From assembly GCA_036939975.1 (NCBI GenBank), contig JALLPB010000018.1, positions 1 through 36,499 of the forward strand: DNA of 36,499 nucleotides. Direction: 5' to 3'. The stretch is from Cyclostephanos tholiformis. Taxonomy: Eukaryota > Bacillariophyta > Thalassiosirophyceae > Thalassiosirales > Thalassiosiraceae. The notes under the pieces were generated by a model. The model was not told where the DNA came from. It made no database searches and worked only from the letters and a program-made list of their open reading frames with translations. Positions 150 through 36,499 of the stretch are shown in pieces. The stretch's first letter is position 1. Each line of letters starts with the position of its first letter. Made by a program: the position numbers and the translations under genes.

Positions 150-3100
150 ATGAACAAAAAAACGATGACCAACGATGACGGATATATGACCAACTATGAC
201 AACGACACGTCGACGACGATGATATTATCATCATCCTCGTCGTCGTCGTCGTCGTCGTCTTGCCCATTCGACGTGATCGTCGTGACCTCCCCCGACATTC
301 AAGCCGCCCGCGCCGCGAGTGAAATGATCTCCTCGTCCTTCGGGGGGGGCATCGTAGTCGTCCAGTCGCCGCCGCCCGACTGGGACCGCCGCGTCGACGA
401 CGTCGACGATCGCGCGGTCGTCGACGATGTCGTCGACGACGACTCTGACGACGACGACGACGACGACGACATCGCCGCGGATGGGAGGACGAGCCGTGGC
501 AATAATGCCACCTCCACGCTCCTCCTCTCGTCCTGCGATCCGTACGGCACGAGGCTGGGCAGCGGCGGGGGGACGATATCGGCTCTCGCCGAGGCGGATT
601 TGGCGTGGCGTCGTACTTTGCCGCCTCGTCGAAGGAGGGGACGACGCCGACGACGGCGGATGCATCATCGTGAAACTGGGGACGGTGAAAATAACGATGG
701 CGATGTCGATTATTATAACGACGATGACGATGACATCCATCCTCCCACGGTGTTGATATGTCACGCGGGGGGGGAATCGAGTCGTTGTCCGACGCAGATC
801 GCGCTCGGGAAGGCGTGGACGTCGTTGCCGGTGGTGCTGCCACCGTCGCGATCGCACACGACGCGCGGTCGACGGGGGGGGGGGGGGGACGTGGACGAGC
901 GCGACGGCGGCAAGTCGGCCGCCGCCGCCGACGCCGCCGTGGCCGTCGTCACGAATCCGACGGAGTCGCTCGTTCGTGCGCTGTCGATCGCGTTCGCCGA
1001 TGTTCCACGAGGTTCCGTCGTCGTTGCAGCGTCGGACGTGCTGCTGTCCCTGGGCGAAGACGACGACGACGACGACGACAACAGCAACAATAACAACGAG
1101 GATGATGGATACGTCAAACGACGACGACGCATGTCAAGAAGGATGAGGATCAAGTTCGACGGCTTAAACGGAGTCGTGGGCCTCGCCGTGCCCGCTCCGC
1201 TATCGACGGCCAAGAACCACGGCGTGTTCGTTTTGGATTCATTTCCTCCTCCTCCTCCTCCTCCTTCTTCTCCTCCTTCTTCGGAGAAAGCGGCGGGAAT
1301 GAACGGTGTGGACGACGACGACGACAACAAGGACAACGACGAGGACGACGACGATCGCGGATGGCATATCGCCGAGGTACGCGGGCTGCTGCAGAAGCCT
1401 ACCGTATCGATGATGATGAACGCGACGGATCCCCCATGCGCCTTCACGCCATTGTCATTCTCCTACCATTCTCGGCACGACGATGCGCACGACGACGACG
1501 AGCGGTACCTCAACGAGCCGCACGCATGGATCGACACGGGCGTCGTCGCCATCCTCCCTGACGTATCGCGCGACCTTCGGGGGATGATGATGCCGACGTC
1601 GACCGGGGGGGAGGGACCGCTCGGTCTATGCACGCGTCGTGGCATCGAACGATCGTACCGAAAGACTTATGGCGATGGTGGTGGCGGCGGCGGCGGCAGC
1701 GGGGTTCATGGTGCACGGTGGGGGAGGGTAGGAGGGATGGCCGAAACCATTATTGGATCGTCATCTTCATCCCTGTCATCGAATTTGCCATCGTCGTCAC
1801 AGTTTCCGTCCATGGTCGAATACGCTCGATCGATTGCGCTGAATATATGCCTTTATGGGGAGATGCTGCACGCACTGCGCACGACAGCGATGAGGGGGAC
1901 ATCCACGACGACGACGATGACGAACCCCCCGACGTACCACGAAGTCCTGTCGAGACACGTACTGCGCGTGTGCGCCGTCCCCGCCGGATCGTTCGTGCAC
2001 CTGGGCACGACGGCAGAGCTCGTCGATTTCGTATCGTCGGGCGCATCCCCCCCCGCCGTCAATGCTGAGGGAGAAGGTTCAAATTGGCGGGGAGACGCCG
2101 ATAGGACCCGACGGCGATATCGACGTTTCGGCGCGGCGATGGGCCTGACAAGTCGCGCTGGTGCCTTCGTTTCTGGGTTCGGTCGTAACAGAGGCCGGCA
2201 CAACGTCGTTATGAATTCCGCGATGACGGTGGTGAATAGGGGATACATTGGGGAATCAAGTATCGTTGAACATTGTCACGTCGACGTAGGCGACGGGACG
2301 ATCAATATTGGGGACGGATGCGTAGTCAGCGGCATACGAGGGTCGGCCTCCTTCTCCCTACCTAGCGGTATGTGCCTTCAGCTTTTGCCATTAAGTCGAT
2401 CGTGGCATACGGTCTATCCTTCCTTAGACGTTGTCGTGGAGGACGCGGTGACTTTTTTCGTTTGCATTTGTATCGGTGTTCATGACAACATCAAAGAGGC
2501 TCCAGCAAAAGCTCTGTTCGGAACAGATTTGCAGTTCATCTTCGGATGCGGGATAGATGAGGACGATCTCTGGGATGAATGCATCCCTGCATCGAAGCGA
2601 ATGCTATGGAATGCCAAAATTTTACCCGTCGTTTCCTCCAACGGCGATGGAACTGTGGAGCTCAACTATTCCTTTTTAGATTGGATAGAATCTTTGCCGT
2701 CATCTCTTTCGTCATTAAGCACGGAAGTAAGACCAGAAGATACGCATTTGCACCCTAATTCGAGTGTCCCTTCGCGAGCAATGATGGGTTTCAAGCAGTG
2801 GAAGGAGTCGACACGCTTGTCGCTTTCTCAGATCCGAACGGTCGTCGATTCTGAAGCCGAGGCGAGGTATCGAAGTTCCATCCCGGTCAAGAAGTGCGAA
2901 GATAGGCGGTTATTGGAGGTGGTTGACATTCTCATGAATCGAAGAAACGTGTCGTGCAATTTTGATCACGTTGTCGATTTTGTGTCGAGCTCAAACTTGT
3001 CCAATGGTACCGCTCATCTCCGCTGGGATGTTTTTGGTAATGCTATGGAGACTCTTGACATTGCAGCATCAAAGGCGATCACCGAAGGCCTGTTTGATGT

Positions 3101-4965
3101 CGCTGGGCGGACGTTTATGACAATGAAATTATTAATAGAAGGCTCCGTCGGCAGCGTGTTGGATTTATCTAATGCAGATAATGAGAGAAGTGCCGACGGA
3201 GTAGAAATGGCGGAGTCGATGAAGGAATCAATTACTTTACTCCAATCTCCGCATATTTCTAAAGATGCAATCGCTCTAATCGCATCCATCCGCAATTCAA
3301 TGCTTTATCCACCGCATGGTTGCTTCATTGACTATAAAATGGTCACTGTTTGCTGCGACTTTCTTGAGCGGGCTGCATCGGCTATGACCGAACGATGTGT
3401 GTCCGGAAATGTCATTGCTAAGAAGCCACTATCGTTGGAACGCACATCGCCCATCCCCATCGGAGCCAGCGCCATTGCAAGTGCTCCCGCCCGAATCGAC
3501 CTTGCTGGTGGTTGGAGCGACACGCCACCAATCTCGGTAATTGAAAATCATGATGACTTCATTCGATGTAAAGCATCCGTTGCATTTCTCACAATCACAC
3601 ATATTTTTTGATGACTTCGACAGTTTGAATACGGCGGTGCAGTGGCATGCCTTGCAGTTTTGGTAGACGGGAAACGACCACTTAAGGCACATTGTCGCAT
3701 GGTTAGGGGGGATGGGTGCATTAGACTTCGTACAGAATCCAGGAATTTAAGCGATGAGAAATTGCTCAGCAGCCGAACAGTGATAATAAGGACGCTAGGA
3801 GATCTTGCCGTTTACTGCAACCCCGAGGCGGACTGCTCGTTATTGATGTGTGCACTCATTCAGCTAGGGTTGGCCACACCGGATTCGATTAGCAACGACA
3901 GCCACGCCTCTATTCAATCGCATCTGATGACATTTTGTCAAACAGACCAGGCTGATCTTGGCCTTGAGGTAACAGCTCAATCACTGCTTCCGACTGGTTC
4001 TGGTTTGGGCAGTAGCTCCATTATTGGTGGGTGCATCTTATCAGCCATCGCAAAATGCGTTGGCATTGTGCTCGCTGGGATAGATAATGCACCCGGAGAA
4101 CGGATCGAAATCAATGGGCAGAATAGTCTCATCCACTCTGTACTGATGCTGGAGCAACTTCTCACTACAGGTGGTGGGTGAGTTTATTTAGCTGAGAGAG
4201 GCTAGAGAATCCTCTCTCTCTCTTTCTTTATATCGTCATTTGCGCTTATTCGCATAATATTTTATATTCGCCCCTCGGTCCTCATGAACATTTTCTATTA
4301 TGGCTCTGTTCGATGTATATCCAAACGAACTCTCTTTTCATCCCTCCCGATACAACAGGTGGCAAGATAATATCGGGGGCATCGTCGGTGGTCTAAAACT
4401 AGGCTTCTCCGATGCACACATTCTTCCGTTGCAGACCAAGGTACAGCGTGTCAGCTTGTCGCCGCAACTGGTCGAGGCATTAAATCAACGGCTTGTGCTC
4501 ACATTTAGCGGACAGCCACGACTCGCGAAGAATATTTTACAGCAGGTTCTTCGGCGATGGGCCACCAGAAGCGGAGAAATCATGACTACAGTGGAAGGCT
4601 TAGTCAAGGGTGCTTCAGAGGCAATCGCATGCGTCGAGGCAGGAGATATCAATGGCCTTGGGCTGGTCATGAATCAATATTGGAAGTTCAAGATGGCTAT
4701 GGCAGGTCCCAATAGCGGCGCCGAGCCTGCTAGTGTGCGCACTTTAATAGATCTTCTTTCGTCCAAGGGAGATATCGTTGGGGCCACTTTGTGTGGGGCC
4801 GGAGGTGGTGGATTTCTAGTATTGCTGGCATCAGAAGGGCATTCGTCACATGAAATTGAATCCACCGCTAGGGCATCGGGCTTGGATTTCTTCTCGTGGC
4901 ACTCCTGTACTATATCCGAGAAAGGCTTGGTAGTTGAGGTGGTTGAAGCTCAGTGTCTCCACTAA
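150..4965 (+). CDS. FKGP: bifunctional L-fucokinase / GDP-L-fucose pyrophosphorylase (3 exons)
   Basis: The protein salvages free L-fucose in the cytosol: fucose to fucose-1-phosphate (C-terminal GHMP kinase) and then to GDP-fucose (N-terminal pyrophosphorylase). Exons are 150-3536, 3624-4177 and 4359-4965, which join in frame to 1515 residues. The N-terminal half shows CPFDVIVVTSPD, DPYGTRLGSGGGT and LICHAGGESSRCP, then LPSGMCLQ and LWNAKILPV, all typical of the fucose pyrophosphorylase fold. The kinase has PARIDLAGGWSDTPP (about residue 1112), PTGSGLGSSS (about 1252), GGGWQDNIGG across intron 2, and GATLCGAGGGGF (about 1455). Plant FKGP is about 1055 residues. The extra length is low-complexity Asp/Ser/Pro/Gly inserts in the first 650 residues. 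The start at 150 is the first ATG of the frame and lies shortly before the first conserved block. It is convergent with the PARN-like gene, 66 bp away. Confidence 0.9.
3537..3623 (+). other. intron 1 of the fucokinase gene
   Basis: An 87-nt GT-AG intron (donor TCG|GTAATT, acceptor GACAG|TTTGAA). Removing it joins WSDTPPIS to FEYGGAV and restores GHMP kinase motif 1. Reading through instead gives an in-frame stop at 3609-3611. Confidence 0.85.
4178..4358 (+). other. intron 2 of the fucokinase gene
   Basis: A 181-nt GT-AG intron (donor GG|GTGAGT, acceptor ACAACAG|G). Splicing restores GGGWQDN, a hallmark of the fucokinase GHMP domain, whereas read-through stops at once. It contains a short CT-rich repeat near 4213-4226. 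Confidence 0.88.
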
Positions 4966-5031
4966 TAACTTATATGAATATTCGTATCTATTGGTGAAAA
5001 GAGACTTCTCATTCTCGGGGATACCATACCT

Positions 5032-7669
5032 TCAGCTGAATCTCATCCGCTTGTTTTCACGCCTACTGCTGCAATTGTCATCACTCGATCGTTTTTCACC
5101 GAAGCCCAGTACCCTATTTATCTTGCATTGTATTTTTGACGCCACTGCAACGATAGAGCCGACGATTCCAGCTGGATCAGATGCGACGATCGCGTTATTC
5201 TTCTTAGTAAAGTAGTCGCCAAGCGATAAAATTTCTACTTTGTTGCCGAGGCCAGCGTATAGCTTATTGCGAACGTGCGATGCGATCAGTCCCGTTGGGG
5301 GCAGGTCGTACGCAAGAGAGATGCCATCATCGGCCATTCTCGTGCCGACGAAGAACGATGAGTCATCCACCCAAATCAATTCGTACTTCAACTGACGAAT
5401 GGCCTCTTCCTCGCTCTCGTTCCCGCTCCAGAGTGCACGGAGTATGTCCCTCGTCAACACTGATGTGGTGATTCCGGATACGTGGAAGGTGGTATCGATC
5501 GAAAGACCACTCGAAAGAGGATCATTCAACCCAGCAGTCGGCCCCAATGATGATTCCAAATCGATGGTGAAAAGAGAAACGTGCATGTAAATTAGGTTAA
5601 GACCAAACAATTCCCTTAGCAGACTTGGGGAGCCATGCAATAAATTATCAAGAGTCATATTCTTCGACTTCAAGATCCTATTCGAGTCCAAGATTCTGTT
5701 ACAAAGGGCGCCAAATACGCAACCTAGAGATAAAAAGAAGAAAAAAAAGCAAACAAAAGAAGCGAATGAGTCATTATCAAACTAAATTGACTAAAAGCGA
5801 CGGCGAGTGTCATCATGTACCTGTCATATGCGCATCCCACGCAGCCTCGTGCGCTTGTCCTTGACCCCTCCCGTCCTGATTCGTTATGACTGCGGGAAGC
5901 ATTTTGGACGAAGAGAGGCACGCGCCGTCAGATGATTTTCCATCGCCGCAAACAACGCCGAACAAGTCCCCGAGATTCGTGCTCCCTCCCTTGATGATGG
6001 CGTCGCTGAACTCCGTCCCGATTACTTTCGTGTCGAAGACTAGGGGAAAGTACGACCTTATGATCCGTTTCGTATCCTCGAACGAGTCGGGAAGGGTTGG
6101 ATCGTGACAGTGCGTCAATAGGAACATCAGGTCGTGCAATCCGTTGTGCACGATGAGGGGTATTCCCCTCCTACCCGTCGAGCTCGTGGACGGGACGGAC
6201 AAATCGGTACACAACCCGTCAAGGAAGTCGCACGTTCGTTTCTCGTCGAACGTATTGCCGTTGCATGCGTCGCTGATCGCGCGGAATACCGTCGCGAATC
6301 CTATCTCCATCAGAATCTCGTCCCAAGCCTCCCGACGCAATCGGGATTCCCTCCTTTCCTTCTCAGCCGGGCTCAAGCGTATTGCCCTTATCTGATTCCG
6401 CAAGGTCGCCGTGGCCTCTCCGTCTCCTCCACCACCTCCTCCCTCCATGTCCGCGCGCTCGAGGATCAGCCCGGGATACTCGATCTCGATCGTCTCGTAC
6501 AGGCATCGACGGAGGAAGGCGTTGCACGGCGGAAGTACGATGGACGTCCCCTCCTCCCGACGTGGTCCGATCGCAGCCACTGATACATCGCGGACGTTGT
6601 TGCCGTTCGCGTCGGCCCTGGCCCCGGCCCCGGCCCCGGCCCCGGCGACAATACCCCCGTCATCGTTTGGAACCACGGCCACGTCGTTCGAGGCGACGTC
6701 CGAGTCGATCCACTCGCGCAGCCCCGCCATGGTCCGTGCCACGAAGGCGATGTCCTCCGGCCTAGTGAGCCTCACCCGTTCCCTCCCGCCTAGCGGTGTG
6801 GCCTGTGCAGCGCGGGAGTTCATGCCATCATCCTCGGCCTTGGCATTGTACCTCTCGAGGTACCTCTTCCTAAGATACGACGACTCCTCGACGGTGGCGT
6901 ACGGCACGCCCTCCCTGAACACCTTATCGAAATCCATGTGATTTTCCAATAGGAATTTCACAGTCGACGGATTCAGCGTAATCTCGCGTCCTACCCCCCC
7001 CGAATGGCCACCACCACCGTGCGGAAAGAGGTAGAAATTGTAAATCCTCGATGTGTATTCCGTCTGTTCCTCCCTCCCCTCCGCGACATCGTCCTTTCCA
7101 TCGTCGTCGTAATCGTAATCGTTGTCGTCGTCGTCGACGCCTCCGTCTCCCCGCTCGTTCTTAACCTCTCCCTCCTCCTCCCTCTCGGTCAGATCCTCCA
7201 GCTCGTCCTGATTCAGCATCCCCTCGCGATGCATGAAGGCGTGTTCGTCGTCTCCGTTGCTGTTCTCTCCGTCGTCATTATCGTTTTCGACGTCCCTCCC
7301 GAGGCCGGGACCGCCGATACCGCCATGGCGGTCGCCGCCGCCGGCCGCCTCGACGACGGCCTCCCTCCCCTCCACCCCAACGACGGCGACGTCATCGTCG
7401 GGTGGACGATGACGATGATTCTCATTCTTACTAAAGAGCGCCACGCCCACCTGTAGTATCGAGTAACGCATGGGCACCCCCCTCAGACGACGAACGTACC
7501 TCTCGGCGGGTAGCTCGACCTTGTTAGGTCGATCGTCGTTGCCGCCGCCGCATCCCGGGAGGGATATCCCCGTCATCTCCTCGTCGATCGCTACGTACGA
7601 CGACTTGGGTAGATGATGGAGGAAGTCGGCGAGCTGGGTGAGGAAGTTGGCCTTGGTTACATGGACCAT
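5032..7669 (-). CDS. PARN: PARN-type poly(A)-specific 3'-5' ribonuclease (2 exons)
   Basis: This is a DEDD-family deadenylase that shortens mRNA poly(A) tails. Exons are 7669-5821 and 5723-5032, joining to 846 residues. Family blocks in order are SSYVAIDEEMTGI (D29, E31), RYSILQVGVALF, YNFYLFPHG, MDFDKVFREGVPY, VHNGLHDLMFLL (D513), FDTKVIG and HEAAWDAHMTG (H607, D612), so the DEDDh catalytic set is complete. After the splice the chain runs MTGCVFGALCNRIL. A later IWVDDSSFFVGTR block matches the C-terminal RNA-binding region of PARN. Human PARN is 639 residues. The extra length is an acidic insert around residues 120-210 and Gly/Ala runs. The ATG at 7669 fits the family N-terminus. Its 5' end faces the histidine phosphatase gene across 295 bp. 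Confidence 0.88.
5724..5820 (-). other. intron of the PARN-like gene
   Basis: A 97-nt GT-AG intron on the minus strand (donor ACAG|GTACAT, pyrimidine-rich acceptor TTTATCTCTAG|G). Removing it joins HMTG to CVFGALCN in frame, as expected in PARN. Unspliced reading stops within two codons. Confidence 0.85.
6617..6643. repeat. CCGGCC-type microsatellite inside the PARN-like coding region
   Basis: A hexanucleotide run (CCCCGG units) that encodes an alternating Gly-Ala stretch in the nuclease. It is in frame. Confidence 0.7.
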
Positions 7670-7704
7670 GGATGGATGTATGGATGGATGGATGGATGGA
7701 TGGG
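7668..7704. repeat. GGAT/ATGG microsatellite in the 5' region of the PARN-like gene
   Basis: A tandem TGGA run directly over and upstream of the PARN-like start codon, in the divergent promoter region shared with the histidine phosphatase gene (7670-7964). The rest of that 295-bp spacer is AT-rich near 7840-7900 and shows no other clear signal. Confidence 0.7.
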
Positions 7705-7964
7705 GATGGAATGAAGCTACTACCTAGCGAGGATGATGATCGAGGAGGTGTGTGTAAATACCTACCTCTAGAGAGAGAGTGTGTGAATCTTGTCACCATC
7801 ACCACAAAGGATTCGCCGTCTGTCCGACTTCAAATTTTTTTGTTAAATATTTTTGGTTTTTAACAAACTTCATAGGTAATATGTAACACTGAAGGAGGAT
7901 AAAAAATGATTCCAACACATCATAATATTTTAGGAAATATAGTATCGGGGGAGGGCGGCCGATC

Positions 7965-9155
7965 ATGCCGTCCTCCATCGAGCTCGTCGCGTTGATAATC
8001 ATCTCGCTCCTCATGATAGACATGTCCACATGCTTCGTTACCGACCAGGACGTCGTCCGCCCGGCCGACGCCGACGCCGCAGATGTAGTCGTCGTTGCCG
8101 AGCCCGACGATGATGGGACGACGACGACGTGCGCCCCCGACCCAACCATGCCCCCCCCCGCGCCGTTTTCGGTGCGGCTGCATCTGATACGACACGGCGA
8201 GACGCAGGCCAACGTCCGTGGCCTGGTATTGGGCCAGGGCGATTCGCCCCTGACCGAGAGAGGATTGGCCGACGCCCGTTCGGCCTCGATGTCAGACACG
8301 ATCAACGGGAGGGCGGGATACTGGCGAACTTACTGCTCCGATCTCGGCAGGGCCAAGAAGACCGCGAGGATTGTTCTCGGCATAATCGGAGATGACGACG
8401 ACGACAATGATGAAGACGATGGGGGGGATGACGTTGACGATTACGACGGAGTAGTTCGTCTAATCCCGGATGCGCGGCTAAGGGAAGTGGCCAAGGGGGC
8501 GAGAGAGGGGTATTCGAAGAAATACACCATCGAGGAGGCGATGGAAATGAGGCGAGGAGAGGCCCTCCTCGAGTCATCCTCCTCCATATATCATCGTGGT
8601 GGAAAGGGGCAGTCGTCGTTATCAAATTATGATGTCGATATCCCGAAACTGGAAAGCGCGGATGATGCCTGGGGTAGGGCGAAAGATTGGATACACGAAA
8701 CCATCGATCATGCGTTCGAGGATTATCATCGCTCGAAAATCGTGAGGATGGAACGGGGGGGTCGCGATGACATCGTCGACACGAGGGGTGGAGACGACAG
8801 TGACAACGACGAAGACGACGACGATCCCAAGGTATATGACGTATTCGCCCTCACGCACTCGGCACTCATACGCACGATTATACACAGGATGGTCGAATCG
8901 CAGCTGCCATCGGACTACGCCAGGACGAGAGAGGGATCGCTCGAGGTACCGAATCTCTCGAGAACAATTATCGACGTACGACCGTTTTATTGCGATGATA
9001 ATTCGCATCGGGCATCCGCCAGGAATGACAACGACGATGCGTCATCGATGTCGTCGAGGCGTACTACTCCCAGGTGGACGACCTCACTTCGGAGGCTGGC
9101 GGATGTTTCGCACCTACAACGCGAGTCGAGGCCGATGAAACCACCTTATTTGTAA
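7965..9155 (+). CDS. histidine phosphatase superfamily (phosphoglycerate-mutase-like) protein
   Basis: A 396-residue single-exon protein. LHLIRHGETQAN carries the catalytic RHG (His77). LGQGDSPLTERGLADAR, YCSDLGRAKKTA and RLREVAKGAREGY follow in the family order, and FALTHSALIRT holds the second catalytic His (H298). VPNLSRTIIDV and RLADVSHL resemble the usual C-terminus. The superfamily transfers phosphate through a phospho-histidine. The substrate (phosphoglycerate, fructose bisphosphate or another) cannot be told. An acidic Asp insert at about residues 145-165 and another near 280 interrupt the fold. Residues 5-23 are hydrophobic and may be a signal peptide ending near STCF, so targeting to the secretory route or a complex plastid is possible but unproven. 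The ATG at 7965 is the first that includes this segment. Confidence 0.8.
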   Translation: MPSSIELVALIIISLLMIDMSTCFVTDQDVVRPADADAADVVVVAEPDDDGTTTTCAPDPTMPPPAPFSVRLHLIRHGETQANVRGLVLGQGDSPLTERGLADARSASMSDTINGRAGYWRTYCSDLGRAKKTARIVLGIIGDDDDDNDEDDGGDDVDDYDGVVRLIPDARLREVAKGAREGYSKKYTIEEAMEMRRGEALLESSSSIYHRGGKGQSSLSNYDVDIPKLESADDAWGRAKDWIHETIDHAFEDYHRSKIVRMERGGRDDIVDTRGGDDSDNDEDDDDPKVYDVFALTHSALIRTIIHRMVESQLPSDYARTREGSLEVPNLSRTIIDVRPFYCDDNSHRASARNDNDDASSMSSRRTTPRWTTSLRRLADVSHLQRESRPMKPPYL

Positions 9156-9366
9156 ATAGGATGAACTAATGCCACAGTTGTACCTAGAGTAGCTCTGTAA
9201 TTGTTTTATTTTTCTCGGAAAATGTCCCGTAATTCTTCCGAAACAAATCGACAACGCAGTGGCTTGCATGACAAGGTGAAGCACTCGCTCAGATGCCATA
9301 CATGGTGGACTGACGAGACTGTAATAATCTCCCCGACTATACAATACCCAAGTACCAACAGATCTC

Positions 9367-11445
9367 CTACGGGATGATGCTCGTGCCATTTCCGACATTT
9401 AAAATAGACGTAGATTCACATCCCCTCTCTCTCAACAACAATCGGTATAAATTCAAAGTGTCATCGATGTTGGTGTAACATCCCACAAGATGCCGTCGAC
9501 TCTCATCGATACTTGCTCCCTCGACGGCGGAAAATTTTCGTCGACCGTGGAGCATCCTCCTGTTGTTGAATACGAGGATCTCGCCAGGTAACAGCCTCCG
9601 TTCCCACGTAAACTGCCTTGCGTATTGCGAGAGATCGTCCAGGTGCAATCGATCCCTGCCGCCGTCGATATCGTCGACGAAATTCAACATTCGGTCGAAG
9701 TCGGCGCATGACTCGTAATATCGATCCACTTGCCAAGGGGGCAAGACGACTGGTCCCTCGAATGGTGGACTCCAATTTACAGCGACGATCTGTCGATCGA
9801 TGTAGCCGGATTGGGAACCCCCCTCTGTCCACCTCACGGCCGTCTCCGCCTCTTCCTCCAACACGTCGTCTTCCAGAACTATGTGGGGTCTCCTGTATGT
9901 CATGCATGCGCCGTCCCTCTGCTTCACGAAAGTCGCCGGACATCGTACTAGCGTCTCGAAGCTCGCCGGGCGAAATTCCCTCAGGCGGTACGCCGCGGCC
10001 ATCCCGTCGATCAACGTGCTCTCGCCCCCGATAACCCCGGGTCCGTTCTCGACGCAGTGCAGGAATTGCAGTCCGGGGGGGGACTCGTAGTATGCCAGGT
10101 CCTGATGCATTTCCAGTCCGTCGGACGTGTAGGCCGCGTTGATCGCCTCGCGTTCGGCGCGGACATGAAATACCTCCCCGTAGAGCGCACCGTGGGACAG
10201 GGATCCGCCGTACGTCGCGGCCATCGCCACCTTCGCGACGGGATAGTATCCGCCCTCGACGAGCGACGACGACGACGACGACGACTCGATGGACGACGGC
10301 GCGGGTACGTTCGTGACCACGGCGGCGCCGTCACGGAAGACGGAATGGAGGAGCGCGAACGCCCCGTCGCGCGACTGGGACGACGTCGTCGTCGTGCCGT
10401 CGTCGTCGTCTCCCACGATCGAGCGGTAGTCCACACGCACGAGCCCATCGTCCCCCCGTAGCAGCAGCGTCCCGCATCCCATCACATCATCTTCCTCCTC
10501 CTCCTCCTCCTCCTCCTCCTCCTCCTCCTCCTCCTCTCTCACCGACCACGACGACGACGACGACGATGCGTTTTGTGGAATCATAGGTCGAATTGCCCTC
10601 AAGGCGTGAGCAGGTCGTATCTCCGTACTCCTCCTCCGACGTGCTCTAGACGTTCGGTCGTTGCGAAAACGCATCAGCCATTCGACGTCATATATCGACG
10701 TTGTCGAGGACGGAGCATCATCGATCAAGCGTTCCATCGTTATGTCGGGGGATGCCATTTTCGTCCTCGATGCGGCCCACTCGACGACGAGGTAGGGCCT
10801 TACGATCCCCCTCCCACTACAGTCATCGTCATCGTCATCGTCACTTTCTTTCGAAGAGGATGACGATGACGTCGTGGACGGTATTGCGGAGGAGGACGCG
10901 GTATCCGTCGTCGTCGTCATCGTCGTCGTCGTCATCGTGCACATCCATGGGGGATAACCCCCGTAAATGGCGAGGGGGTGACAGCAATCTCCCGGCGTCG
11001 GACCGGGTACCATCCTCGTCGTCGATCCAACGGTCGAGGACACGCTGCACCCCCCGTCCACGTCGCCGCCATCGCATGCGCGCGATTCGAGCATCTCGAT
11101 GGTGGCCCCGCCGATTATTCCTCCCTCATATCCACGCCCTCCCCCCCCCCCCCACGACGCGTCGTAGTGGACGATCGACCCTCCACGGTCATCATTCCCG
11201 AACATTATCGAGACACGGGCGCCGTCGCTCGACGTCTCGACGACCTTGGCGGACAACGACGATGACCATGACGCCTTCGAGGGCGATGGGCCACGGCGGG
11301 AGAAGAGACTGGCCACCGACCGGGCGGCCGCGGAGGGCTCCTTGGGATCCTCCTGCCGCAGGGGCCACGTGTCATCGTCCTCGGGGGGCCACACGACGCG
11401 TTGATTGATCCGTGGCGATGGTTCTTTGGTCGCCTTCTTTGGCAT
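9367..11445 (-). CDS. gamma-butyrobetaine / trimethyllysine-type 2-oxoglutarate dioxygenase
   Basis: A 692-residue Fe(II)/2-oxoglutarate oxygenase of the TauD/BBOX-TMLHE family, whose known members hydroxylate carnitine precursors. Iron ligands are visible as MHQD (H447, D449) in LEMHQDLAYYESPPGLQ and as the distal His in NNRRMLHGRRKF (H633). GESTLIDGMAAAYRL, YTNIDDTLNLYRLL and LPPWQVDRYYES are other family blocks. Around residues 260-310 a shorter segment ending DVEWLMRFRNDR resembles the link between the small N-terminal domain and the oxygenase. The first 200 residues are low-complexity Ser/Thr/Asp sequence and the start is uncertain. A Glu run (GAG repeats) separates the domains. Typical BBOX is about 390-420 residues. 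Sequence alone does not separate BBOX from TMLHE activity. It is convergent with the histidine phosphatase gene, 211 bp apart. Confidence 0.82.
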   Translation of the reverse strand: MPKKATKEPSPRINQRVVWPPEDDDTWPLRQEDPKEPSAAARSVASLFSRRGPSPSKASWSSSLSAKVVETSSDGARVSIMFGNDDRGGSIVHYDASWGGGGGRGYEGGIIGGATIEMLESRACDGGDVDGGCSVSSTVGSTTRMVPGPTPGDCCHPLAIYGGYPPWMCTMTTTTMTTTTDTASSSAIPSTTSSSSSSKESDDDDDDDCSGRGIVRPYLVVEWAASRTKMASPDITMERLIDDAPSSTTSIYDVEWLMRFRNDRTSRARRRRSTEIRPAHALRAIRPMIPQNASSSSSSWSVREEEEEEEEEEEEEEEDDVMGCGTLLLRGDDGLVRVDYRSIVGDDDDGTTTTSSQSRDGAFALLHSVFRDGAAVVTNVPAPSSIESSSSSSSLVEGGYYPVAKVAMAATYGGSLSHGALYGEVFHVRAEREAINAAYTSDGLEMHQDLAYYESPPGLQFLHCVENGPGVIGGESTLIDGMAAAYRLREFRPASFETLVRCPATFVKQRDGACMTYRRPHIVLEDDVLEEEAETAVRWTEGGSQSGYIDRQIVAVNWSPPFEGPVVLPPWQVDRYYESCADFDRMLNFVDDIDGGRDRLHLDDLSQYARQFTWERRLLPGEILVFNNRRMLHGRRKFSAVEGASIDESRRHLVGCYTNIDDTLNLYRLLLRERGCESTSILNVGNGTSIIP
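10493..10536. repeat. TCC/GGA trinucleotide microsatellite
   Basis: About 14 TCC units on the plus strand, read as an uninterrupted Glu run in the dioxygenase on the minus strand. It is in frame and likely length-variable. Confidence 0.8.
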
Positions 11446-20348: not shown

Positions 20349-21789
20349 ATGCACGGAGCTTGCACCAAACTTGCATGGAACTTTCTCACAAAACTTGCCC
20401 TGTTCTGGACCAGGTTACATACCTAAAAAAGATCATTCCCATCAAAAGAGGCCAACAATAACTCAGCTCTATTTCCCTCAACCTCAACAAAAGTCTCATG
20501 TACGAATAGGTATGTAGGATTTTTTTGGGGGGGCGGATTGAGAAAGGGGGGGAAAGCTCTGCCGGCTATGGATTCACAGAGATGAAATTCCTCCACAAGC
20601 CTTCTTGTTGAAATTCATAGTTACTTGCCAACGCATTCCTGGCCATTCTTTTAAGAGTTCCTTGGAGCACTCACAGCTGCCCTAAAATTAATGAGAAAGG
20701 GAGTTTTTTGTATTTGTTTATAAAGAGTCCTACCAATCTCTCGTGCCATGACTGTAGTTCCTATAACTCAAAGTACGAGAAGGGGATTTTTTTTGTTTCT
20801 GTGCATATAGAGTCCTACGTATCTTACCTTATGTATGTATGTCGTTACTGTAAATTTTCACATTTGCCTAATAGTAAAGTATGAGAAAGGCTCGGATGTA
20901 CATATATGATCTACCCAGATTTATTTACAGTACACACCACAGACACCAACTATGACACCCTTTAAATCTTTATACCTGATGCTCTCTCCAACATACATCA
21001 GATGTAGTATAATACTCTAGAGGACACCACAACTAGTTTTTATGGCCCAATATCATTTACATGAATGTAGATCTTGACCTAATGGTCACATTACTACTTG
21101 AGACTGTCATCATTGGACATCATCTTGGCTGTCAATATTGTGCCATATCATACCTAGGGCGCATCCAGCGAACTGACAAACTCACAATGCAGCTCATGTC
21201 TTTGCATGTTTTCATCAGCATTTCATCTTCAAATCTGTTGCAACTTCAGTCAATGCCCATTCCTGTCATGATAACAAATTGATCTGCATGTGCCAATAAT
21301 GTTAATCATGTTGTGCAGTTCCTTCTGAGGAATTGGAATGCCTCAGTTTACGAGGTGATGCTCATCTTTGAATTTCAAAAAAAACACCACAATGATTTGA
21401 GGAGCTCATGTAAGACCATCTCTTGTTTGTTCATCCAAGCACTGTGTGCACTTGTCCCACCCACCAATGTTGCTCAATGTGAGGGGACATCAGTTCATCA
21501 AAGCACTGTGGGGACTTGTCCCACCCACCAATATTGCTCAATGTGAGGGGACATCCATGGTACTACCCTACAGTATGGACAACAGTAAAGTTAAGATGTT
21601 TCAAAACCTGGGTTAATCTTACCCTTCTTCAGATAAGAGTTATAATTCAAATGTACAGCATCACAGGCATCAGCAACATCATTGGAGTATGAGAAGGGCA
21701 AAAACCTAGGGGTTTCACAAATCCCCAGAACATCTCAAATCCCAAGAATGTATGGTAAAATTTGTTGCTTTTGATCTGTTTTTGTAACC
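20349..21789. other. AT-rich intergenic stretch, no supported gene
   Basis: It contains two related GAGAARGGGA...GAGTCCTAC segments near 20693 and 20777, and a 64-bp-period duplication at 21432-21555 (CACTTGTCCCACCCACCAAT). Frames at 21061-21546 are short and interrupted, and I could not assign them. Confidence 0.4.
21432..21555. repeat. two tandem copies of a 64-bp unit
   Basis: Copies begin at 21432 and 21496, each containing GCACTGTG...ACTTGTCCCACCCACCAAT and ending TGTGAGGGGACAT. They differ at few positions. Confidence 0.75.
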
Positions 21790-22663
21790 TTAAACTCTCT
21801 CCAATCACAGACATTCTCATATCTGCCTCCTGTATTAAATATCTAAGTCTAGAGTTATGTATCCAGATGATGACACACCTTCTTTTAATGAAAAAGTCAT
21901 CAAGTAGTGAAACATGATTCACATTGTGAGGCTTGATTCACATTGTAAAGCATGATTCAAATTGATTTTGGCAAAGGCAATAAATATTCCTACGTTGACT
22001 CTCTACAGACCCAATGTGATTCACGTCAAAAAGTGTGATTCACACTGTTAAGCTTGATTCACGTCATGCACTGCTTTCAAATAAAGATTCATAAAAGGAA
22101 GTCATTCTCATAATAAACAAGATTTATTATCTTGAATTAGGTTTTTAGGTACCTTGGTACATAAGGATACAGACGTTCTCATATCAGCCTCCTGTATTAA
22201 ATATCGACATCTAGATGTATCCAGAAGATGACACACCTTCTTTCTACAAGAAAGTCATCAAATAGTGAAATGTGATTCATGTTGTGAAGCTTGATTCACA
22301 TTGTAAAGCATGTTTCACTTTAACTTTGGCGAGTGCAATAAATATTCCTACGTTGACTCTCTACAGACCCAATGTGATTCATGTCAAAAAGTGTGATTCA
22401 CATCATTAAGCTTGATTTATGTCAAGTACTGCTTTCAAATAATGATTCATAAAAGGAAGTCTTTCATGTAATAAGAAAGATTCATTATCTTGAATTAGGT
22501 TATTAGGTACCTTGGTACATAAGGATACAAATGTTCTCATATCAGCTTCCTGCATTAAATATCTAATATGTCTAGAGTTATGTATCAACATGATGACATA
22601 CTTTCTTTTTACGAGAAAGTCATCGTGAAGCTTGATTCACATTTTAAAGCATGATTTGGAAGT
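21790..22663. repeat. satellite array 1 (~360-bp monomer, about 2.4 copies)
   Basis: Monomers are marked by TCAGCCTCCTGTATTAAAT near 21829, 22191 and 22549, giving periods of 362 and 358 bp. Each monomer holds two clusters of a 19-bp subrepeat (TGATTCACATTGTGAAGCT type) and GGTACCTTGGTACATAAGGA. The array is broken at 22663, where the candidate DNA element begins. Confidence 0.85.
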
Positions 22664-27340: not shown

Positions 27341-27623
27341 GAAGAATTATAACATTGTAATTAGGCAGATATTATATCTGGAAGAAAGAATTAACATAGT
27401 AGTCAATGAACATTTTATTCCATCTGTGTCAACCTTTCTAAAGTAGCAAGCAAAAAGGTATTAGTTTATGTAAAATAACAATGTATTGTCACTTATGACA
27501 GTTTATTGTTTTATTATTAAAAGGTAACAAATTAGAAACAATAAAAATTTTATTTTATTTAGATAAAGTACGAGATAAGTGAGACAAGTTATTGTGATAG
27601 AGAAACTTTTCATTGTTGTGAGG

Positions 27624-29150
27624 CTTTCTTGTAATAAAAAAGATTCATAATCTTGAAGTAGGTTTTTAAGTACCTAGGTACATAAGGATACAGATGTTCT
27701 CATATCAGTCTCCTGTATTAAATATTGACATCTAGAGTTATGTATCCAGAGGATGACACACCTTATTTTTATAAGAAAGTCATCAAGTAGTGATGTGTGA
27801 TTCATGTTGTGAAGCATGATTAACTTTGTAGAGCATGATTCACGTCAACTTTGGCAAGTGCAATAAATATTCCTAGATTGTTTCTCTACAGACCCAATGT
27901 GATTCACATCAAAAAGTGCGATTCACATCATTAAGCTTGATTAATGTCATGTACTGCTTTCAAAAAAAGATTCATAAAAGGAAGTCTTTCTTGTATTCAT
28001 ATCAGCCTCCTGTATTAAATATTGATGTCTAGAGTTATGTATAAGATTCATTATCTTGAATTAGTCTTTTTAGGTATCTTAGTACATATGGATACAGACG
28101 TTCTCATATCAGCCTCCTATATCAAATATTGACTTCTAGAGTTATGTATCCAGAGGATGACACACCTTCTTTTTACAAGAAAGTCATCAACTAGTGAAAC
28201 ATGATTCGCCTCATCAAGCTTGATTGTCATTGTGAAGCATCATTCAAATCGATTTTGGCGAATGACAAAGGCTATAAATATTCCTACATTGACTGTCTAC
28301 AGAACCAATGTAATTCACTTAAAAAAGTGTGATTCATCTTGTTAAGCTTGAATCACGTCAAGGACTGCTTTTAAATCGAGATTCATAAAAGAAGTCTTTC
28401 TCAGAATAAAAAAGATTCATTATCTTCAATTAGGTTTTTAGGTACTTTTGTATATTAGAAAACAGACATTCTCATATCAGCCTCCTGTATTAAATATCGA
28501 CATTTAGAGTTATGTATCCAGAAGATGACACACCTTCTTTTTACAAAAAAGTCATCAATTAGTGAAACATGATTCAAGTTGTGAAGCTTGATTCTCATTA
28601 TAAGCATGATTCAAATCGATTTTGGTGAATGGTGAGAGCAATATAATTTCCTACATTGACTCTACAGACCCAGTGTAATTCACTTCCAAACATGTGATTC
28701 ACATCGTTAAGTTTGATTCAACTGCTTTCAAATAGGAAGTCTTTCTTGTAATAAGAAAGATTTTATCTTTAATTTATTTTTTAAGTACCTTGGTACAGAA
28801 GGATACAGACATTCTTGTATCAGCCTCCTGTATTAAATATCTAGTACGTCTAGAGTTAGGTATCAAGAGGATGACAAACCTTCTTTTTACGAAAAGTTAT
28901 CAAGTAGTGAAACATGATTCATGTTGTTAAGCTTGATTCATATTATAATGCATGATTAATGTCAACTTTAGCAAGTGCAACAAATATTCCTACATTGACT
29001 GTCTACAGACCCAATATGATTTACGTTTTAAAGTTTGATTCACATCAAGTACTGCTTTCAAATAAAGATTCATGAAAGGAAGTTTTTCTTGTAATAAGAA
29101 AGATTCATTATCTTGAATTAGGTTTTTAGGTACCTTGGTACATAAGAATT
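27624..29150. repeat. satellite array 2 (~360-bp monomer, about 4 partial copies)
   Basis: The same monomer and orientation as array 1. Markers TCAGCCTCCT.TAT fall near 27712, 28009, 28116, 28484 and 28827, giving spacings of 297, 107, 368 and 343 bp, so some copies are internally deleted. It ends at TACCTTGGTACATAAGAA near 29150. Confidence 0.85.
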
Positions 29151-29484
29151 TTCATGTTACAAGAGGACTGAAATCAGGGTTAGGGAAATAAGTAGACACA
29201 GAGAGAAGCAAATTAGCATTTTTATTGCCTTATTATCAATTTATTTAACAGCTTAACAGCTATTGACGCTCATGAGCGTCCACTTTTTAACGAGCTTCTT
29301 TGGTGCATAGTTACTTGCTAAATTTTTATCCGTTCACAGAGTTAGATAGCTAGAAAGTTAGCTGAGCTCTTCGGCTTTCTTGTTGTTTTTTGAAAATTTG
29401 ACAACGCTTGTATCTCCAATGACGTGAATAGAGGGTCCCTTTTGTGCCTTTTTCGTACTAGCTTTAATTCTCAGTTGTGAGGTT

Positions 29485-32881: not shown

Positions 32882-33314
32882 TGGTAGAACACCAAACGTG
32901 CCCTGATCTTTGCTGTGTGTATCCTGTGCAAGAGTCCAGGTGTGATCAGAGCCCGTGACATCAAATGCAGAGTGGAATGCTGGCTAAAGCTGTAGACAGA
33001 TGGCCACTACAATGCCCTTGTGCAAGACATTGTAGGGGAGGCCATGAGGGGTGCAGGCAGTGGCCGGGGCATGGCCGACAAAGACATCATTGATGGTCCT
33101 TGACAACAAGCTCTGCACCACAGTCCACTTTGCCACCAACCGCAGCGGTGGTGGAGTCTTGCTGCCACAAGACTCTCGCACCAAGATAGGATGGCCGGTG
33201 ATGGAGGTGCTTTGCTCGTAACACCCCAACACCAGGATCCCTGATCTCAAGGATCCGCATTGCATTGCTTTTGAGCATTACGATGAGGTGCTGGTGGAGA
33301 TCTGTACCAGCTAA
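32882..33314 (+). pseudogene. relic of a retroelement ORF (region upstream of an RT domain)
   Basis: Segments read CILCKSPGVIRARDIKCRVE, NALVQDIVGEAMRGAGSGRG, then after a frameshift near 33095 LCTTVHFATNRSGGGVLLP, TKIGWPVMEVL and RIPDLKDPHCIAFEHYDEV. This order resembles the stretch that precedes the reverse transcriptase domain in a retroelement family common in diatom and other algal genomes. Internal stops (32885, 32990, 33101, 33221) and the missing RT mark it as dead. The call is from memory of the family, without a search. The 32521-32881 spacer before it has no supported feature. Confidence 0.4.
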
Positions 33315-33815
33315 TATCGAATATCTGTATATTCGAATTTACGGGTTTGTATACTCCGTATATTCGAATATGGGTTTTAATCGGTACCCCCCATATTCGA
33401 AGTTACGGGTTTTTTTAGTCATTTTGTACATCCCATATTCGATATCAGGGTACCCACTTACCCCGAATATCGAATATGGTGTTTACGGAAACTTGTATAT
33501 TCGATATTCGGGTATTCCTCTGACCCCGATTATCGAATATGAATAATTTTCGGAAAAAATATATTCGATATTTGGGGTCGTAAAATCGAATATACAGACC
33601 GAGATATCGAATATCTAATTGTTCGGATTTTTCTATATTCGATAATTGGCCCCGTAAATTCGAATATAGGCGCCTGGATATCGAATATATATTTTACGTC
33701 AAGTCGTATATTCGATATTCAAACCCTTAACTTCGAATATACAACTTTTTTACTGCGTATTTTCGAATATTTTCATGTATATTCGAAGTTAAGGGTTCGT
33801 ATATCGAATATAGGT
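33311..33815. repeat. helically phased array of ATATTCGA/TCGAATAT motifs
   Basis: Nineteen motifs centred on TCGA in an AT context. The C of each central CG is at 33318, 33334, 33365, 33398, 33440, 33471, 33502, 33534, 33566, 33587, 33608, 33640, 33661, 33682, 33713, 33734, 33764, 33784 and 33805. Apart from the first gap (16), spacings are 20-21, 30-33 or 42 bp. The motifs lie in both orientations. Spacer words such as GTTAAGGGTT, TTACGGGTTT and CCCCGAAT recur. No coding frame is supported. Confidence 0.8.
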
Positions 33816-33970
33816 ATTTCTTTGCGCAGTTTTTTAATGATTCATAGTCTTCAGTTGGCAAATAATGTTTCCAAAGCCTAGATTTATCCAAGCTTAGTCC
33901 TTTAGATTAAGTTAGTCCTTTAAAGAAGAATCGTAATGATTACTCTTTTAAATGTTCCTTATCATGTCTT

Positions 33971-34134
33971 CGTTACAATCACCAAACAATCCCTGCAAAC
34001 AATCCTAAACAAACCTAATCAATGTTTTCCTAATCTCTCGTAACAATCGCCAAACAATCCCTGCAAACATTCCTAAACAAATCTTCAAGACAAACCTAAT
34101 CAATCTTTCCTGATATCCTAAACAACCCCTGCAA
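33971..34134. repeat. imperfect 68-bp tandem repeat, about 2.4 units
   Basis: Units begin CGTTACAATCACCAAAC at 33971 and CGTAACAATCGCCAAAC at 34039, each containing CAATCCCTGCAAAC and CCTAAACAA. A partial third copy (CCTAAACAACCCCTGCAAA) reaches 34134 and enters the end of the Ulp1-like ORF. Confidence 0.7.
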
Positions 34135-35052
34135 AAACACTCTTAACCCCCTAATGCAGCTATCCTTATTCACCACAGTTTCCATTGCAGGAACAACCGC
34201 TGTGGCACTTCTCTTTCTACCTTCGGGATTGGAGTGAGTCCGGTAGTCGACCTGAAGACTTACCACAGCACCTGCAGCGACACCAGATTGTAACGCTGCG
34301 TTACCACATTTCTTCATTGCCTTCTTAGCACTTTCTTGTTGCTTCTTGTTTTTCTTTTCCATGGCCAATGTGCGCTTGTTCGAAGTGACAGACACTGCGT
34401 CAGGCTCTTCGTCTTCCCCATCATCTATCTCAATTTCCTCATCCTCGATATGATTCTTCTTGATTGTCTTCATTTTCCGGACATATACGTCCCTGCTGAG
34501 CATATACTTGAGTTGAGGTTCATTCACCTCCAGCATTCTCTCATAAAACGGCATGACTACTCCACGATAGCCATGCTTCTTCTGTGCAATTCCGGCAATT
34601 GAATTGGTGGGAATAAACCCATATAACTCCAAAACCTTGAGGCATGCGATTGGGCCACAGTTGAAACCATCATTTTGCTGGATGATTGGGTCATTGTAAA
34701 CTATCCAAGGCTCATTCAAATCGTTAAAACATAGCTCAACTACGCGGTCGCCATCACTGCCCACTGTTTGCTCGACATGTACTGTGGCATCTAGCTCTTG
34801 GTAACCATATTTCTTGAGAGTGTGGACAATATGATGCTCCCAGGTTCTGAGAGGATAGTTGAGGCCATCATAGACAATGACAGATTTCTCGTCAAGGTCA
34901 TACACCAACACGGCAAAATGACTACAGGCTAAAACAACTGACACAAAATGGGTAATTCCATCCATGAGAACGATCTCATTTGTAGTGAGGGATGCTCGAG
35001 GATGAGGGGTCCTTATCATTTGTACAACAAGGCAAAACCCTTGCAGTTCCAT
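34096..35052 (-). CDS. Ulp1-family (C48) cysteine protease-like protein
   Basis: A 318-residue frame with an apparently complete catalytic set of the SUMO/ubiquitin-like protease fold: SHFAVLVYDLDEKSVIVYDGL-type region with His45 and Asp62, and IIQQNDGFNCGPIAC with Gln126 and Cys132. These enzymes cleave ubiquitin-like modifiers. An acidic stretch (about residues 200-218) and a Lys-rich tail (KKNKKQQESAKKAMKK) follow. An in-frame stop lies 12 codons upstream of the ATG, so either the start is as given or 5' exons are missing. The usual upstream WLND-type segment is not seen. Divergent Ulp1 domains are often carried by eukaryotic transposons, and the repeat-rich setting fits that. The last 16 residues overlap the 68-bp repeat. 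Confidence 0.65.
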   Translation of the reverse strand: MELQGFCLVVQMIRTPHPRASLTTNEIVLMDGITHFVSVVLACSHFAVLVYDLDEKSVIVYDGLNYPLRTWEHHIVHTLKKYGYQELDATVHVEQTVGSDGDRVVELCFNDLNEPWIVYNDPIIQQNDGFNCGPIACLKVLELYGFIPTNSIAGIAQKKHGYRGVVMPFYERMLEVNEPQLKYMLSRDVYVRKMKTIKKNHIEDEEIEIDDGEDEEPDAVSVTSNKRTLAMEKKNKKQQESAKKAMKKCGNAALQSGVAAGAVVSLQVDYRTHSNPEGRKRSATAVVPAMETVVNKDSCIRGLRVFLQGLFRISGKID

Positions 35053-36499
35053 TGTTGCAATGGGATTATCGATGGTGCTGTTGAATGATTATTTCTAATT
35101 GTGTAAATTGGCTGAGAAAAAAATAATTTAATAAAATCTTTGATTTGATTTAATTTTACACTATATTCCTGACTTGATTGCCTCAAATCTATTGATCCGT
35201 GATCCCCCGGTGCCCACCCTCCAGTTGCTCGTCCTGTAACATTCCTCTTCCTTCTTGCCCACATGTTTTCAGTTGATTGTTAGGTTGTTTTTTGTTGTTT
35301 AGCAGCCGTTTAAGGCCTCAAAAAAAATTGTTTTTTTTATTTTTGTGCCACTTAATTTGTCGGCCAAAACGATGCCAGATGCTGTGGTCGTGCGCCCTTC
35401 CCTGCATCCCCCCCCCCACTGCCAATGCCGACTATCAGTTGATTGCTACCCCCTTCTCTCTCTTAATTTTGTTCATCTATTTGCCGCCCTAAATTATGGC
35501 AAAATGCCCCTCCGACATGTTCCGCCACAATCGTGCACCCTCCCCATTATTCAACATACCGTGAATGTCAAATACCAGTTGGTTGTTGCATTGTCTGACA
35601 AAATGATGGTCAATGAAGGCCAAGACCCTCCCTCTCTTTCTCTTTTTTGATGGGTTGCCTTTTAGGCGCCCCAAGCGCCCCCCCCAGCCCCAGCATGAAA
35701 ACAACCAAAGCAAGTGTACCCGCCATCGCCCACAATGTGGAGAGGAGGCAAATTGTGCCAGAACAGACAGAAGACAGCCATGTGTGGCAGTAGAATCCAT
35801 ATAGCACACATTGCCCGGCGGCCATCTTGTTGGTTGTTGTGTGTGTTGTTTAGTTAAGTGTACACAATTAAGGCTGTGATTTCTTTGGGAAATAGACAAA
35901 TAGACAAATACGCAAAAGAACAGGTAGGAACAGTTTTTTTTGGATGGCGTCTTCTGCGTATCTATGAATTTTTCCCAGTTTTTGTTGCCACGCAGACTGC
36001 AAACATGCAGATATGCGCTTTCAAGCCATACCAACCTCACATTTAGTCGACATTGCCCTTGCTGTCAACAGCTCCAAGCTGTCATCAACAAAGGTTCCGA
36101 GGCTCTCGGGATGCCATAATTGTCTCCCAAAAAAAATAAACACCATGGCTTAACCGCTCCCTGAGATATGGGCGTGTCCCGCCTGCAGTTACAGCAAGAA
36201 TATTGATAGCTCTAACTGCCAAATGTACACATTGGCACGGCCCCGGAGTGGACGCTCAGTTCTGCTTGTGGACAAAAAATCGACTCACCCTGCCGCCGTC
36301 GCAGCACGCGGAGGCCGTAAACCACGACCACCCCCCCGAAGGTGAGGGGGGCTGTGCCTCCTGCAACTTGCAAGTCTCCCTCCCGAAGTGCTAAGAATAA
36401 GGCGAGTGAAAGAATTGCCACCCAGTTAGCCATGTACCTTCCCGTGCCCATGGCTGAGGTGGTACACTCACCCGAGTCTTCCCCTGATGGCCCATTGGT
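35053..36499. other. intergenic or repeat-derived DNA, no supported gene
   Basis: It is T/G-rich near 35270-35345, with C runs at 35410 and 35670. Open frames on both strands (largest 35489-36040 minus) are low-complexity and mutually overlapping, and none shows a family motif. From about 36,200 composition becomes GC-richer and may mark the edge of another coding or repeat unit cut by the window. Confidence 0.4.

Follow-up and report, generated by a model that had tools for sequence, protein, structure and literature searches.

A helically phased array of asymmetric sites at the left end of an integrase-type DNA transposon in the diatom Cyclostephanos tholiformis

A 36,499-nt stretch of the genome of Cyclostephanos tholiformis (contig JALLPB010000018.1, positions 1 to 36,499, here termed the window) carries an array of 19 short sites at 33311–33815, 18 of which are on the same face of the DNA helix. 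This array forms the left subterminal part of a dispersed cut-and-paste-type DNA transposon with TGT...ACA ends. Coding relatives of this transposon encode, in order, a retroviral-type integrase with a DDE core and an H2C2 zinc finger, a Ulp1 protease and a nine-cysteine, or CXC, cluster. The array is probably best explained as an asymmetric set of transposase-binding sites on one helical face, with the element's own integrase-Ulp1-CXC protein as the putative binder.

The TCGA cores of the sites start at 33317, 33333, 33364, 33397, 33439, 33470, 33501, 33533, 33565, 33586, 33607, 33639, 33660, 33681, 33712, 33733, 33763, 33783 and 33804. With TCGAATAT denoted F, ATATTCGA denoted R and both denoted B, their orientations read, in order, F R B R R F R F R F F R F F R F F R F. 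Once oriented, all 19 sites display a perfect ATATTCGA with zero mismatches, and 15 of them have a GG-containing block next to it. The real unit of the array is therefore probably an asymmetric site of ∼18–20 bp, ATATTCGAWWTTnSGGG, present in both orientations, and the array as a whole is not assigned to a strand. There are 20 occurrences of TCGAATAT or ATATTCGA in the 505 bp of the array, whereas 500 dinucleotide shuffles average 0.33 and never exceed 3. Tandem Repeats Finder lists no repeat at 33311–33815, and a short-period tandem repeat was rejected.

A sequence-only reading of this DNA had described 19 TCGA sites, listed the 18 gaps between them and counted 471 bp over 45 helical turns, all of which are reproduced exactly. 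Its statement that 18 of the sites are in phase, in both orientations, also holds. With the first site set aside, Rayleigh R is 0.859 at a best period of 10.50 bp; this value was reached by none of 4,000 random-gap arrays when periods of 8–14 bp were scanned and by none of 20,000 at periods of 10.2–10.8 bp (gaps drawn from 16–45 bp). All 19 sites together give an R of 0.776 at 10.48 bp. The first site (33317–33320, minus strand) is within the terminal repeat and is 16 bp, or 1.5 turns, before the next one, so that it faces the opposite side of the helix. Of 30 left ends collected from the genome, 23 share this 16-bp first gap.

The left end of the element is well defined. The left copy of a 4-bp target-site duplication, GATC, is at 33299–33302 (plus strand) and is found at the same place in more than 20 copies. 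It is followed by the element terminus TGTACCAGCTAATATCGAATATC (33303–33325, plus strand), which is an imperfect inverted match to the right ends. Across copies, the left terminus is GATC followed by TGTAC(C/A)AGCTAATATCGAATATC; right ends read inward as TGT(T/C)(G/A)CAGCTAAATTCGAATAT, and the imperfect inverted match, as judged by eye, extends over ∼27 bp including GATC. When positions 33100–34100 of the window were searched against the genome, 34 matches were obtained, and 20 of them start at window positions 33291–33302. As the flanks outside the left terminus differ among copies (by eye), the shared left start represents the element terminus. One match, on C255, covers the flank only and is a paralogous sequence without the element, with GATA at the insertion point. 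The flank at 33100–33298 is itself a repeat, and its element-free paralogue on C255 (L018, 3660–3860) was used as the empty site.

Complete short copies are ∼300–940 bp in length and have a right end of ...AGCTGC(G/A)ACA followed by GATC, or close variants of this. In 13 of the 19 copies with both ends read, the 4-mers that flank the element match each other (GATC in ten, and GTTC, GAAC and GCTC in one each); in the other six (C939, C194, C2, C864, C1392 and C5) they differ. The three identical non-GATC pairs are predicted by a 4-bp target duplication but not by a GATC built into the ends without duplication, which they rule out. Insertion is accompanied by a 4-bp target duplication, with GATC preferred. 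Two short copies, used as queries, gave at least 46 matches on at least 39 contigs and at least 77 matches on at least 38 contigs, lower bounds from scoring 40 of 72 and 40 of 69 candidates. Right-end pieces are found at or near contig ends on C260, C251, C425, C326 and C1562, and several left ends likewise. Because element ends sit at contig ends, the assembly is probably interrupted within these elements, so that their number is underestimated.

A mobile-element terminus was among the possibilities raised by the sequence-only reading, and the termini, target duplications and copies establish it. An origin- or centromere-like site and a curved element had also been proposed. Superficially, the phased AT-rich motif does resemble a centromere, origin or nucleosome-positioning element of the host, which would have no connection with transposition. 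The end sequences of a short copy, however, are matched on 39 contigs or more, the termini are sharp and target duplications are present, and the arrays are thus dispersed at transposon ends and not confined to one locus. Nor does predicted intrinsic curvature exceed that of shuffled sequence: 318 of 500 shuffles bend as much as the whole array and 89 of 500 as much over 63-bp stretches. The likelihood of such a host element is negligible, and a curved element is not supported either.

Inward of the array is a part of the element interior with short CAAACAATCC-type repeats (33816–34095, no strand assigned), and next to it, on the minus strand at 34096–35088, a gene remnant. The remnant is an open frame of 330 amino acids (318 when started at ATG) that represents a Ulp1/C48-type cysteine protease with the motif QQNDGFNCG. 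Its match to Pfam PF02902 has an E value of 0.0015, below the cut-off of that model. The frame displays 55% identity across residues 131–426 of the protein P0003, whose residues 61–298 fold as SENP/NEDP1/Ulp1. The C-terminus of the remnant faces the array, and so does that of the coding relatives. Neither the C-terminal CXC part nor the N-terminal integrase part was found in the window, and the presumed further interior, from 35089 to the contig end at 36499 (no strand assigned), has no recognised coding part. The window copy is a defective derivative in which the left array has 19/19 perfect sites.

The integrase is seen in the coding relatives. The C1420 sequence matches Integrase_H2C2 with 26.4 bits, above the cut-off of 25.5. 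In the intact frame of C1039, the scores for H2C2 (25.1 against a cut-off of 25.5) and rve (26.7 against 32.6) both fall short; this frame matches the PFV integrase with an E value of 1.9e-5 and has the DDE residues D192, D256 and E294 (frame numbering). Each protein has one CXC motif, as determined by pattern and by eye. The integrase-Ulp1-CXC architecture recurs in database sequences, mostly short contigs, and a relative is found in the diatom Skeletonema marinoi (P0081). P0132, a protein annotated in a nimavirus metagenome assembly, is a distant integrase homologue (E 1.5e-26 at 24% query coverage). Forty viral-contig stretches matched a pattern derived from P0003; by tblastn, none of them encodes a relative.

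Other features of the coding relatives can be mentioned here. Residues ∼724–792 of the C1039 frame (L085), between Ulp1 and CXC, form a RING-like stretch with weak PDB matches (best E 0.017), and a similar stretch is visible by eye in P0081. An element-borne open reading frame with a GFQxWHxDF-like motif, possibly an oxygenase, is present at L049 (5480–6211), L084 (1843–2592) and L087. This dioxygenase-like frame (GFQGWHRDF in C1420 and others) has no Pfam match in the two examples scanned, and the model of its homologue P0046, with a predicted local distance difference test (pLDDT) score of 34, is of too low a quality; the frame was set aside.

Phasing is a property of other left ends as well. 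Thirty left and 21 right ends were collected, of which 27 and 16, respectively, had six or more sites, and an end was considered phased at p<0.05 for periods of 10.2–10.8 bp against jittered sites. Fourteen of the 27 left ends are phased, the window copy among them. Arrays linked to the element's gene display the same property: C1420 (R 0.75, 0/20,000 jitters; R 0.91 in the first 500 bp), C1335 (R 0.82, p 0.0002), C1563 (R 0.66, p 0.002) and C1169 (R 0.63, p 0.043; p 0.065 in the left-end test series). The C1420 array can be aligned to that of the window only in pieces of up to 94 bp and stays in phase though its gap order differs. The sequence-only reading had pointed to other genome copies as the place to look for the periodicity, and the expectation is borne out at left ends and not at right ends, where it is detected in 1 of 16 and where sites are fewer.

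Part of the array arose through duplication, often inverted. Similar spacer pairs number 8 of 153 at p ∼0.01 or less. A 37-nt inverted repeat inside the array (left arm 33707–33743, plus strand; right arm 33776–33812, minus strand), with arms 95% complementary, is evidence of growth via inverted duplication, and there is a further inverted pair of 64 nt (73%). The C1420 array has an internal repeat of ∼327 bp, as judged by eye. These features are in keeping with the strongest rival explanation, which does account for part of the array: a neutral by-product of direct or inverted duplication of one or two ancestral units of two or three turns, with no selection for phase. When one gap is taken per similarity cluster and the 16-bp gap excluded, however, the remaining nine gaps deviate from whole turns by 0.33 bp on average, which none of 400,000 random sets reached; including the 16-bp gap (ten gaps) raises the average to 0.8 bp (p 6e-5). 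Further, all 19 sites are perfect whereas the spacers are not, and the C1420 array is in phase with a different order of gaps. A fixed 52-bp (31+21) unit, the simple duplication that the sequence-only reading had named as a possible source of the spacing, is not visible in the order of gaps across the array. Comparison of the window array with ten related copies shows spacer differences of 0 bp in 68 of 106 cases, 1 bp in 13, 2–6 bp in 13 and 7 bp or more in 12; of these last, ten are 9–12 bp, one is 18 bp and one is 74 bp. Changes of 9–12 bp number ten versus two of 5–8 bp, some of them common by descent. Neutral growth as the source of the phase is unlikely.

The array also contains 42 inverted pairs at least 14 nt long, and its DNA folding energy of −106 kcal/mol is low (z = −12 versus 100 shuffles). 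Both would be expected if the functional form were single-stranded, with the successive inverted repeats folding into hairpins or cruciforms that serve transposition. Sites in two orientations, however, create inverted repeats by themselves, and the hairpin potential follows largely from these two-way sites together with the inverted duplications. Folding predicts no 10.5-bp rule across gaps, and DDE integrases with 4-bp duplications use double-stranded ends. A hairpin function is thus very improbable.

Decay of the sites is of a particular type. Seven site copies are gapped; the 116 ungapped ones comprise 65 that are intact, 38 that read TTGA or TCAA and 13 with other changes (some of these misaligned). 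Of the changed copies, 38 of 51 are altered C-to-T or G-to-A at CpG, and since decay is mainly at CpG, the array sites appear to be methylated. Methylation would also be consistent with binding of the sites by a host protein (a silencer, or a nucleosome- or methylation-related factor), the phase then reflecting that protein or nucleosome wrapping; wrapped DNA can show AT-rich sites at a 10.5-bp phase. The phasing, however, is found at left ends of the transposon and hardly at right ends, and the array travels with the element's gene, which makes a host factor a rather improbable source of the pattern.

Because array and gene travel together, the candidate binder is the element's own protein. 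An array for a cooperating DNA-binding protein was another suggestion of the sequence-only reading; it is most likely what the sites form, the binding itself being what we infer from the array and its gene. The CXC cluster would be the first candidate reader of the sites, since CXC domains read DNA in LIN54 (PMC4974476) and MSL2 (PMC3447885). In the proposed mechanism, the integrase-Ulp1-CXC protein would bind the ∼20-bp asymmetric site many times, and with sites two, three or four turns apart in either orientation, 18 protomers would come to lie on one face of the helix. Neighbouring protomers would touch and form a one-sided assembly; the sites vary in orientation, which would fit a protein able to form dimers or back-to-back contacts. 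At a distance of 1.5 turns, the terminal site might present the cut end to a catalytic dimer on the other face, and a right end with its own site spacing would allow the two ends to be told apart, as in Tn7-like elements. The CpG in each site would expose the array to methylation; old copies have decayed to TTGA/TCAA.

A wider interpretation is tentative, plausible rather than probable. It regards these elements as a eukaryotic, algal integrase transposon lineage in which a single end carries a one-faced scaffold, half a kilobase long and made up of ∼18 transposase sites, on which assembly would be cooperative and helix-locked; the integrase would be joined to a CXC reader and a protease of the SUMO/NEDD8 type, and the CpG of every site would allow host methylation to switch the scaffold off. 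To our knowledge, such an assembly would be several times longer than the transposon-end complexes described so far.

Several observations weigh against a one-faced array bound by the element's own protein. Thirteen of the 27 left ends miss p<0.05; many of these are decayed short copies, and in many the inner parts follow other spacings. Right ends are without detectable phasing (1/16 at p<0.05), but have 6–13 sites versus 7–19 at left ends, and there is therefore less power there. Left arrays can still be aligned to that of the window, with 59–79% identity over the longest stretches; they are therefore not fully independent and their phasing is partly inherited. The 9–12-bp spacer changes include ones common by descent and may include alignment artefacts, and the site definition for decayed copies was fixed after inspection of the data. 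The window copy runs off the contig, so that its right end and the full element lie beyond, and C838 and C548 carry the gene with no array in the stretch examined. No Pfam CXC match at E≤1 was detected in the frames scanned, and the CXC part of the predicted model is poorly predicted. The two minor-groove tyrosines of LIN54 are absent from the element's CXC at what we take to be the corresponding position. The TTYRAA specificity of LIN54 (PMC4974476) is thus not transferable, and the resemblance of TTYRAA to the site sequences TTCGAA/TTTGAA is a lead only.

In architecture the element is closest to Ginger1, as far as the cited sections of its description go (Bao, Kapitonov and Jurka 2010, PMC2836005). 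Shared features are a Gypsy/retroviral-type integrase with an H2C2 finger and a DDE core, a C-terminal Ulp1 domain (Ulp1 or OTU in Ginger1), termini starting with TGT, a sequence-specific 4-bp target duplication and non-autonomous derivatives. The Ginger1 target is CCGG/CCGT, whereas here it is GATC (10 of 13 identical pairs, with CCGG/CCGT in 0 of 13); Ginger1 inverted ends are 40–270 bp, compared with ∼27 bp and imperfect here (by eye). Ginger1 has a GPY/F motif, called a hallmark, and a YPYY motif, and neither pattern is present in the 1061-amino-acid intact stretch of C1039; GPY/F is found in 1 of 30 homologues with all three signatures. The TGTNR ends of Ginger1 fit the right ends (TGTCG/TGTTG) and some left ends (TGTAG) but not the left end of the window copy (TGTAC). 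The CXC cluster and the long phased site array at one end are additional here, and the main text of the Ginger1 description (PMC2836005) uses neither "subterminal" nor "binding site". Given that integrase, Ulp1 and the 4-bp duplication are present and that GPY/F, YPYY, long inverted repeats and a CCGG target are not, the element is best regarded, against the published description, as a putative Ginger-like integrase transposon lineage and not as a Ginger1 member. Ginger2/TDD, GingerRoot/IS3EU and IS481EU also have an integrase-like transposase, TGT...ACA-type ends and, in some, a 4-bp duplication, and no Ulp1-CXC fusion is described for them in the cited parts of PMC10045372 and PMC2836005; GingerRoot is known here by its mention in PMC10741241 and PMC10045372.

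In working mode, the closest systems are the ends of Tn7 and CRISPR-associated transposons (CAST) and the subterminal repeats of En/Spm. TnsB, the transposase of the former, belongs to the integrase superfamily. According to the cited sections of PMC10201428, Tn7/CAST elements have several sites per end, asymmetric ends and a spacing-dependent activity with a ∼10-bp period; altered TnsB-site spacing in VchCAST gives activity peaks about every 10 bp, and phase can thus matter for an integrase-superfamily transposase. Whole-turn site spacing of this kind is found here in the window copy and in 14/27 left ends, and in 1/16 right ends. Tn7/CAST are bacterial, however, and VchCAST has three sites per end versus 19 here (PMC10201428); no kinship of the DNA sites is claimed. 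En/Spm (CACTA) elements, bound by the element-encoded TNPA, likewise have an array of short motifs in asymmetric subterminal regions, the motifs consist of a GC-rich and an AT-rich part, and methylation has been suggested to hinder binding; the transposase is unrelated, however, the target duplication is 3 bp (Tgmt*), and no helical spacing rule is mentioned in the sections cited (PMC2613891). The long inverted repeats of Galileo, with THAP sites, display several transposase sites deep in long ends, for which higher-order multimers have been proposed, but the transposase is P-element-like, three sites are described, and no phase rule is mentioned in the sections cited (PMC3688188). LIN54/tesmin, also in the sections cited, shares a cysteine-rich CXC cluster as DNA reader, but has two tandem CXC domains (PMC4974476), compared with one motif per protein and an unmatched Pfam model here. 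Searches of one open-licence library found no description of such phasing in Ginger-like elements, and as far as these searches go, the one-ended, turn-locked 18-site array, the GATC preference and the CXC fusion are new.

Elsewhere in the window, two clusters of ∼345–370-bp tandem repeats (∼60–94% alike), with 19-bp TGATTCACATT sub-repeats inside, are present at 21738–22624 and 27557–29186. In the region 150–11445 there are host genes of an ordinary kind, with long open frames, for a fucose pyrophosphorylase, a CAF1 nuclease, a histidine phosphatase and a TauD-type dioxygenase.

Whole-turn spacing over 45 turns, with sites in both orientations, amounts to a directly testable statement on how a eukaryotic integrase-type transposase assembles. 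As the cis-acting pattern is tied to an integrase-Ulp1-CXC architecture found repeatedly in database sequences, many elements are available for testing the rule. These transposons also provide a natural case for asking why integrase transposons carry SUMO-type proteases.
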